Shown here: positions 42,535 through 44,299 of the stretch, in pieces
Numbering within the stretch: the stretch's first letter is position 1
Layout of the letters: the number at the start of each line of letters is the position of its first letter
Assembly: GCF_023824195.1 (NCBI RefSeq)
Contig: NZ_CP085442.1
Coordinates: 4,983,501-5,047,500, forward strand
Origin: Priestia megaterium
Lineage (GTDB): Bacteria > Bacillota > Bacilli > Bacillales > Bacillaceae_H
Direction of reading: 5' to 3'
Length of the DNA: 64,000 nucleotides
Notes under the pieces: generated by a model
What the model was told of the DNA's origin: nothing
The model's database searches: none
The model's input: the letters and a program-made list of their open reading frames with translations, nothing else
Program-made: the position numbers and the translations under genes

Positions 42535-43575
42535 TTATTGCTTAATCACATGATGTCCTGCAGCTTTCATTAATCGATTCATAACGGCATGACCGACTCC
42601 TTCTTCAGAAAAACTTTCACTAACGATAATATCTACATCGCACTCATTAAATGAACGAAGCGACTCGTATAAGTGGCTAGCAACCGTCTCTAAATTTGAA
42701 CGAGATCCACATGTGATAACCGCATCCGCTTTATACGCATCTTCATGTTCAGACGTCGTTAATACCCCCACTCGCTTACCCTGATCTTTATAGCGATCAA
42801 TAATAGATTGGAAAAAATCTGAACTGCCGTCAACAATGACAAGCGGTGCATCAGGTGCGTAATGCGTATATTTCATACCTGGAGATTTTGGCGCTTCTTT
42901 ATCACTTATTAACGCTCGATCTACTTTTACGGGACCAATGACATTTTCCAACTCTTTCTGAGTAATGCCGCCCGGCCGTAAAATGATAGGAATCTCTTCC
43001 GTACAATCAAGGACAGTCGACTCTACTCCTACCCCTGTTGCTCCTCCATCTACAACTCCGCTAATACGCCCTTCTAAATCATTCATCACATGATGAGCTA
43101 GAGTGGGACTTGGCTTGCCGGAAAGGTTTGCACTAGGAGCTGCGATAGGCAAAGCCACTTTTTTTAATAATGCGAGGGCTACCGGATGTGATGGCATTCT
43201 CACTGCAATGCTGTTTAAACCAGCCGTAACCTTATCTGAAACTCGATCTTTTTTGGGTAATATTACTGTAAGAGGACCCGGCCAAAAAGCATCGATCACC
43301 TTCTTTGCTTTTGAAGGAATCGACTCTACAAATGTATGAAGCTGCTCTTTATCTCCAATATGAACAATAAGAGGGTTATCACTAGGACGTCCTTTCGCTG
43401 CAAAAATTTTATCCACAGCTTTATCCGATGTTGCATCTCCTCCTAATCCATACACCGTCTCTGTAGGAAAAGCAACCACTTCGTGATTGCGCAGCAAATC
43501 TGCTGCTTCTTCTATCTGTGGATAAATATCTTTTTCGTTCGTAAAATTATCCACAACCCATAACTTAGTTTCCAT
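42535..43575 (-). CDS. ywlC: Threonylcarbamoyl-AMP synthase YwlC (Sua5/TsaC)
   Basis: 346 residues from the ATG at 43575 (METKLWVV), with AAGGAG nine bases upstream. The YrdC domain has [46 protein letters not shown] ([11 protein letters not shown]) and [11 protein letters not shown]. The C-terminal Sua5 domain begins after [15 protein letters not shown] near 235. It makes threonylcarbamoyl-AMP for tRNA t6A37. Three DnaA boxes lie inside its 5' coding region and four or five in the gap upstream. Confidence 0.95.
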
Positions 43576-43760
43576 CTTCTTCAACTCCTTTTTCTTTCTA
43601 TATCTAGGTTTTTTTTACTTTAAAAGTACAATATGTATCAAAGATAGTAAAATACATGCATTCATTATATCAACAAACAAGCTTTATCCACAAAATGTGG
43701 ATAAAGCTTATATTTTTGTGAATAACATTGTGGATACCCCATTAAAATGATTTATCCACA
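43409..43760. promoter_or_regulatory. DnaA-box cluster at the ywlC 5' end and upstream gap
   Basis: Seven perfect TTATNCACA boxes: 43409-43417 (+), 43517-43525 (-), 43547-43555 (+) in ywlC; 43684-43692 (+), 43696-43704 (-), 43717-43725 (-), 43752-43760 (+) in the gap. One single-mismatch box lies at 43729-43737 (-). Such density is far above chance. The pair at 43684-43704 forms an inverted repeat. From memory, DnaA-box clusters outside oriC in B. subtilis include one at ywlC and help restrain replication initiation. Confidence 0.85.
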
Positions 43761-43767
43761 TTTTCTT

Positions 43768-44214
43768 TTAACTAGCTGCATAAAACATCACGTAGACATC
43801 CTGAGGATTTGGTAACTTTTTTAAATAAGAATGTTCTTTTAACAACTCAGGCAGTGCACTGTAAGATGTTTGCTGAAAATTCATCATTTGAAAAAAATGT
43901 AGAGAAGATGCCTTATTTGTTAGTAAATATAGTTGCTTCACGCCATGCTTTTGAGCCAGCTGGACGATGCTTTTAAATAGCAGCAGAATATCAGATTGTA
44001 TTAAAGAAGGTGACACGACAAGGGAGCGGAGAATTCCATCCACACCTTCTTTTTCAAACCCAACTGTTGCTAGCAGCTCGCCTTCTTCATTTTCCATTAT
44101 GACAAATTGATGAATATGCTCTTCCACACCTGCTGTGCTGATGCCCGCTTTTTGTAAAAACTGTTGAATTCGAATATAATCACTTTCACTGGCAATTTTT
44201 AATTGTTCTCTCAT
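43768..44214 (-). CDS. ywlB: GNAT-family acetyltransferase YwlB
   Basis: 148 residues from the ATG at 44214 (MREQLKIASESDYIRIQQFL), with AGGTGATT upstream. The GNAT fold is recognisable: FVIMENEEGELLATVGFEKEG (as EGELLATVGFEKEG), LRSLVVSPSL and LYLLTNKASSLHFFQMMNF. The usual Q/RxxGxG acetyl-CoA loop is degenerate here (SPSLIQSDILL), so catalytic activity is uncertain. It sits between spoIIR and the ywlC DnaA-box region as in B. subtilis. Confidence 0.82.
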   Translation of the reverse strand: MREQLKIASESDYIRIQQFLQKAGISTAGVEEHIHQFVIMENEEGELLATVGFEKEGVDGILRSLVVSPSLIQSDILLLFKSIVQLAQKHGVKQLYLLTNKASSLHFFQMMNFQQTSYSALPELLKEHSYLKKLPNPQDVYVMFYAAS

Positions 44215-44299
44215 TTTAATCACCTCAACTTGTTTTCTAGTAACAAATCTATGAGATGATTAAAAAAAGTAGAACTGAATTTTATTTTTAATGATTCTA

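Follow-up and report, generated by a model that had tools for sequence, protein, structure and literature searches.

Putative DnaA boxes clustered at ywlC of Priestia extend into the coding sequence and appear to have dictated codon choice

We describe at ywlC of Priestia a dense cluster of DnaA boxes, which we regard as the probable counterpart of the ywlC DnaA-box cluster of Bacillus subtilis, a judgement that covers the explanation given below as a whole. In B. subtilis this locus has been described before; what appears to be new is the box architecture at fixed positions inside ywlC, where the boxes appear, judging from the sequence comparisons, to have dictated the codon choice and, in relatives, even the amino acids. 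In about 20 named genera (the label of one of them being doubtful) a large part of the YwlC N-terminal extension is quite likely a read-out of putative DnaA boxes, in any frame or orientation, kept by selection on codons and residues while single boxes turn over; the adjacent terminator-like stem would hold two more boxes, and through the cluster free DnaA may be linked to the t6A modification. Among the titles and abstract openings listed, none reports boxes in the ywlC coding sequence; Okumura 2012 may do so.

The window, that is, the whole stretch of 64 kb of DNA that was analyzed, contains 7 perfect TTATNCACA boxes and one single-mismatch box in the 352 bp between 43409 and 43760, and no perfect match to TTATNCACA beyond these seven (Table 1). 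Six of the perfect boxes are of the variant TTATCCACA and the remaining one, at 43717, is TTATTCACA, while the mismatch box reads GTATCCACA. The preliminary description had counted the same eight sites, three of them in the 5' coding region of ywlC and the rest in the ywlC-ywlB gap, two forming an inverted pair across three bases; all were located, with three perfect boxes in the coding region, four plus the mismatch box in the gap, and the inverted pair at 43684 and 43696 separated by the spacer AAA. The mechanically obtained open reading frame of ywlC opens with TTG 43584, immediately next to a Shine-Dalgarno-like AAGGAG; ATG 43575 is taken as the likely start. For the product of ywlB the best NCBIfam match was ArsN2, below its cut-off. 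Promoter-like sites of the kind that includes the candidate ywlC promoter number 8 in the stretch versus 4.2 in shuffles.

Table 1. Features of the ywlC-ywlB region, in positions of the window; offsets are counted from the anchor, a 10-residue YwlC motif.
Feature	Position	Strand	Remarks
ywlC (tsaC/sua5), L-threonylcarbamoyladenylate synthase	42535..43575	-	346 aa from probable ATG; NCBIfam TIGR00057 above cut-off
DnaA box TTATCCACA	43409..43417	+	ywlC codons A-V54-D55-K56; +53 from anchor; perfect in 15/158 loci
DnaA box TTATCCACA	43517..43525	-	ywlC codons I-Y18-P19-Q20; -55 from anchor; perfect in 64/158 loci
DnaA box TTATCCACA	43547..43555	+	ywlC codons V7-V8-D9-N10; -85 from anchor; perfect in 59/158 loci
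Promoter-like TTGATA-18-TACTAT, candidate ywlC promoter	43644..43673	-	consensus scan, 9/12; between upstream and coding boxes
Hairpin of inverted box pair plus outer stem	43677..43711	-	terminator scan; terminator-like on both strands
DnaA box TTATCCACA	43684..43692	+	inverted-pair arm; gap
DnaA box TTATCCACA	43696..43704	-	second inverted-pair arm; gap
DnaA box TTATTCACA	43717..43725	-	gap
One-mismatch box GTATCCACA	43729..43737	-	gap
DnaA box TTATCCACA	43752..43760	+	gap; 7 bp past ywlB stop codon
ywlB (GNAT acetyltransferase-like)	43768..44223	-	upstream of ywlC, same strand; name from gene order

Four box types were mapped over the genome, and clustering was tested on contig C1 (5,155,594 bp), on which 276 perfect boxes were found, about 1 per 37 kb per strand; the chance rate given beforehand, about 1 per 30 kb per strand, was therefore of the right size. 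The genome-wide comparison of densities proposed in the preliminary description places the ywlC cluster first among the perfect-box clusters of this 5.16-Mb chromosome, with 7 boxes in 352 bp, the next densest 352-bp stretches (at the end of C1, upstream of dnaA, and at gcp-ydiF) having 4. C1 begins with the dnaA reading frame, and the ywlC cluster is located 129 kb from the contig end adjoining dnaA, hence the statement that it lies far from the oriC genes holds only in a relative sense. That a common 9-mer became clustered by chance in an AT-rich genome can be practically dismissed. A total of seven in the whole window is unremarkable by itself, being reached by 6 out of 100 shuffles; however, all seven fall within 352 bp, where 0.019 boxes are expected, and in 2000 trials with 276 randomly placed boxes no 352-bp stretch received more than 3. 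Moreover, boxes are piled up at ywlC in relatives belonging to other genera, and chance clustering was rejected on these grounds.

The ywlC locus was compared in 158 Bacilli loci, comprising 79 named, 10 genus and 69 class loci; the class search matched 199 of 200 genomes, the window's own included, and 69 of the other 198 were examined, namely the best 29 and 40 chosen to spread over families. Loci L092 and L131, which are the window's own, were excluded, and so was L066 (a MAG in which the match begins at residue 24) from the 158-locus counts. Two pairs are identical over the compared stretch (L012/L101 and L015/L103), so that 156 of the 158 loci are distinct; L101, a genus-mate, is identical to the Priestia flexa locus L012 over 1,300 bp. 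Grouping the 158 loci at 90% identity gave 143 clusters, with a coding box in 101 and at least three boxes in 95.

In 81 loci (the window and 80 others) the three 100-bp bins that run from -200 to +99 relative to the start of the ywlC match hold 147, 31 and 112 boxes, versus 0-2 boxes per bin beyond 1 kb; counts are elevated as well between -800 and -201 (3-14 per bin) and between +200 and +399 (13 and 16). Two control patterns gave 0-1 in the three main bins, one of them reaching 7 at the +1800 bin. Three or more boxes in the interval from -420 to -40 relative to the anchor were present in 62/79 named, 10/10 genus and 35/69 class loci, the latter being made up of 23 of the best 29 and 12 of the 40 further ones, 21 of which are without any box. 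Counted by genus, 19 of the 21 named genera include one or more species with a cluster of three or more boxes at ywlC, a conservation that the preliminary description had proposed to look for, and 20 of the 21 include one or more with a box inside the N-terminal coding stretch; in the exception, Schinkia (L032), a box lies just outside that stretch.

The ywlC N-terminus of L055, filed as Paenibacillus sp. FJAT-29882, is nearly identical to those of the Peribacillus loci L035 and L059, and its genus label looks wrong. On a contig labeled as an Oscillospiraceae MAG, L066 has a ywlC 62% identical to that of the window, with no box from -600 to +400; misbinning or transfer is possible. An unannotated Staphylococcus phage record (OR845006.1:21846-21959) matches the ywlC coding sequence with 73.7% identity over 114 bases, perhaps as host DNA in a phage record; a phage origin was rejected, since this single phage record matched, over 23% of the query and within the ywlC coding sequence.

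The coding boxes recur at fixed positions. On the gene strand, perfect boxes were found among the 158 loci at -85 (minus, 59 loci), -73 (minus, 37) and -55 (plus, 64), positions that fall within about the first 20 ywlC codons and are read as VD[NK], VD[NK] and YP[QH], respectively; further coding sites are +53 (minus, 15 loci) and +103 (plus, 9 loci), and the window gene has those at -85, -55 and +53. When synonymous codons were shuffled keeping the protein and the codon usage (118 genes, 200 shuffles), the 29 codons before the anchor displayed 165 boxes versus a shuffle mean of 28.4 and a maximum of 46, and the rest of ywlC 62 versus 9.8 (maximum 17). Taking one species per named genus (21), the values were 34 versus 6.5 (maximum 14 of 1000 shuffles) in those 29 codons and 12 versus 2.2 (maximum 6 of 1000 shuffles) in the rest of the gene; the window gene alone, with its 3 boxes, gave a P of 0.0008.

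Codon usage at the box residues agrees with these counts. Val is GTG in 94% of 201 N-terminal VD, compared with 51% of 422 later VD and 32% of all later Val, and Pro is CCA in 93% of 85 N-terminal YP, compared with 50% of 14 later YP and 27% of all Pro. Ranking the columns by codon bias puts V8 and V12 ahead of all other Val columns (29 in total), P19 ahead of the other Pro columns (22), D9 and D13 ahead of the other Asp columns (16) and Y18 ahead of the other Tyr columns (6). This ranking is an internal control for shared ancestry; the dependence among related loci is reduced, but not removed, by such a per-column test and by the per-genus one. Ser columns are strongly biased too, namely S17 (before the YPQ box) and also S148 and S156, two core positions outside any counted box, and serine was thus left out as evidence. 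The earlier guess that selection on codons might be visible is strongly supported by the codon shuffle, the per-genus test and the column ranks.

Single boxes come and go within this arrangement. A second frame, LST, located 11 bp upstream (-66), carries the box in 4 perfect and 9 one-mismatch loci; L109 and L111 have their coding box in the LST frame and L019 has a perfect box in both the YPQ and LST frames. Where the N-terminus has insertions or deletions (L118, L160, L161) the box pair shifts along, keeping its spacing of 30. In L056, L062, L073 and L075, which we take to be the B. licheniformis group, the N-terminal coding sites carry mismatches. On a FastTree tree of the 118 genes the individual sites changed 17 (-85), 11 (-73) and 26 (-55) times, versus 9 changes for the presence of any box from -100 to -40, which is found in 104/118. 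A perfect box is missing from the N-terminal coding stretch in 43 of the 158 loci, 11 of them among the 79 named; this, the turnover of the individual sites and the excess of boxes over shuffles in the rest of ywlC weigh against the explanation favored here.

We take the inverted pair of the gap to be a terminator-like hairpin that carries two DnaA boxes; it may double as the terminator stem after ywlB. In the window the hairpin folds with -24 kcal/mol (z -7.5). Its tail has a T fraction of 0.55 on average over the loci, and a moderate one on the ywlC side in the window. An upstream inverted pair with a 3-bp spacer and at most one mismatch was present in 95/158 loci. Among 52 distinct exact pairs, the outer positions 1-3 are Watson-Crick in 37, 33 and 31 cases versus maxima of 29, 28 and 29 in 1000 shuffles that ignore relatedness; position 4 gave 33 versus a shuffle maximum of 34, and positions 5-7 were not above the shuffles.

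Two other causes for the repeats must be weighed against DnaA binding at this point. One is that the function of the protein preserves the N-terminal peptide of YwlC (VDK..VDN..YPQ), from which the coding boxes would arise as by-products, a reading that gains something from L134, a box-free relative in which VD and PQ are present as well, so that some of these residues predate the boxes. Nevertheless, no other Val, Pro, Asp or Tyr column is as biased as the box codons, the LST frame carries the box too, and solved TsaC/Sua5-type chains align to YwlC only from about residue 19-21 onward; the synonymous-column ranking and the second frame led us to reject protein-level conservation as the sole cause, and we find it hardly credible. 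The other is that RNA structure and not DnaA keeps the repeats, by means of an upstream terminator plus an mRNA hairpin whose arms would be -85 (or -73) and -55. This we hold to be improbable, even though the fold of the upstream pair is strong, its outer stem positions 1-3 covary and the coding arms are complementary: in the pair -85/-55, 117 positions deviate, of which 91 are unpaired and a single one is compensated by a Watson-Crick change, in the pair -73/-55, 77 deviate, 51 of them unpaired and none compensated, and the coding RNA hairpin is therefore not supported. In addition, 40 loci have only the minus box and 12 only the plus box in the coding stretch, the free N positions are unpaired in 14 of the 52 upstream pairs, and an Rfam search returned no family at the gathering threshold. 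For the upstream pair the terminator role and the DnaA role are compatible.

Other stretches of C1 with several boxes are the dnaA region, the jag-trmE gap, gcp(tsaD)-ydiF, and places beside yqeG and rlmH (yydA). NCBIfam names obtained there are tsaD, an ABC-F protein, yqeG and rlmH; the names jag, trmE and, as synonyms, ydiF and yydA are presumptive assignments, in part read from the ORF start. The gcp-ydiF cluster was compared in 30 loci of 61 genomes, where the three 100-bp bins past the gcp stop hold 27, 35 and 22 boxes (84 in 300 bp), mostly between converging genes, and 22 of the 30 loci have at least three. It resembles the ywlC cluster in being a multi-box cluster conserved within the same order and placed beside a t6A gene (tsaD), and differs from it in that the boxes are mostly intergenic. 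Coding boxes counted over 22 convergent ydiF genes were few, with 2 falling in the last 60 codons and 7 deeper inside the gene, versus shuffle maxima of 1 and 4; a weak coding extension of this cluster into ydiF is possible, and ywlC is thus the clear coding case and not necessarily the sole one. Two DnaA-box clusters therefore lie beside two t6A genes, ywlC/tsaC and gcp/tsaD, a coincidence which promoter control fails to explain since the gcp boxes are beyond the 3' end of gcp.

Two further sites were observed on C1. A cluster of 3-4 boxes placed 9 bp apart, downstream of a sensor kinase gene (C1:384529-384642; L004:3030-3143), is present in 5 of the 7 Priestia genomes with a long kinase match (the window's included; L202-L206) and absent from the other 2, and is possibly a lineage-specific DnaA-box cluster. 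About 2.2 Mb from oriC, a three-box cluster (C1:2947834-2948010; L005:2835-3011) was found in all 5 genomes (of 10; the window's included; L214-L218) carrying the neighboring gene.

The host DnaA aligns to 8btg_A, which we take to be B. subtilis DnaA, over residues 1-446, the C-terminal part being near-identical. We propose that DnaA probably binds the upstream boxes, the conserved inverted pair included, together with the 5' ywlC boxes, so that both groups would flank the candidate ywlC promoter at its presumed location, the coding boxes presumably adding to the binding. At high free DnaA the bound cluster would repress ywlC and with it t6A tRNA modification, and together with the other clusters it would hold part of the cellular DnaA away from oriC. 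The coding boxes would belong to the site, selection for DNA binding having fixed the N-terminal codons of YwlC and, in many species, amino acids. By analogy, the binding, the ywlC repression and the effect on initiation reported for B. subtilis are carried over to Priestia, where DnaA bound here may both be titrated and repress t6A synthesis.

Excerpts of the work on B. subtilis describe a region 6, "upstream of ywlC; downstream of ywlB", where a 300-bp window holds 9 putative DnaA sites and ATP-DnaA binds strongly in vitro (apparent Kd 0.25 uM) (PMC4447404); the B. subtilis cluster that the preliminary description had named is therefore real and corresponds to this region. There, ywlC is named as a gene repressed by DnaA (PMC12112137; PMC4447404), a passage of a review lists it as directly DnaA-regulated (PMC8203912), and a PywlC-lacZ fusion spanning -240 to +73 of the start codon, which would include the N-terminal coding boxes, is reported to be reduced in a mutant whose DnaA is about twofold higher (PMC12112137). 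The role of such clusters in delaying initiation, which the preliminary description had put forward, also finds backing, as reviews report early initiation when six clusters were deleted together (PMC5295017, PMC13220808; also PMC11019786).

On this record it is possible, if rather doubtful, that the cluster is purely an operator repressing ywlC, with no meaningful effect on timing and with titration being incidental. The repression reported in B. subtilis and the boxes on both sides of a promoter-like sequence fit such an operator; besides, the effect on initiation required the removal of all six clusters, one review passage sees no cluster with a significant role (PMC5295017), and another reports no over-initiation in B. 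subtilis at about 10-fold DnaA overproduction, which speaks against a simple titration view (PMC13220808). On the other hand, the gcp-ydiF cluster is conserved too and lies mostly between converging genes, thus promoter control is no general explanation of such clusters, and early initiation was partly relieved when one cluster was put back (PMC5295017). Published views on the importance of the clusters for initiation timing differ (PMC5295017, PMC13220808). Loss of ywlC is reported to induce the stringent response in B. subtilis (PMC4634966), so that repression of ywlC by DnaA could, speculatively, feed back on initiation via (p)ppGpp.

If DnaA does bind here, the coding part of ywlC would be an unusually clean case of replication-initiator binding shaping a protein sequence, and the ywlC loci an evolutionary record of boxes kept versus replaced. 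Removing boxes by synonymous changes could separate DnaA binding from YwlC function, and the link from DnaA to t6A to (p)ppGpp would be a testable feedback hypothesis for the coupling of translation and initiation in Bacillus.

Among known systems, E. coli datA is similar in having high-affinity DnaA boxes clustered outside oriC that restrain initiation, and different in that datA needs IHF and promotes the hydrolysis of DnaA-bound ATP (excerpts of PMC5295017); B. subtilis, according to a passage of a 2026 review, is without IHF and Hda homologues (PMC13220808). The other multi-box stretches of C1 coincide with DnaA-binding regions described in the relevant part of the B. subtilis study (PMC4447404). 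The ywlB-ywlC cluster of B. subtilis, region 6 of that same study, shares with the one described here the gene pair, the box consensus, the multiple boxes and the origin-proximal location; a possible difference from that cluster, as taken from publications, is that three of the seven perfect boxes of Priestia are in coding sequence, two of them near the start of ywlC in the VDN and YPQ frames.
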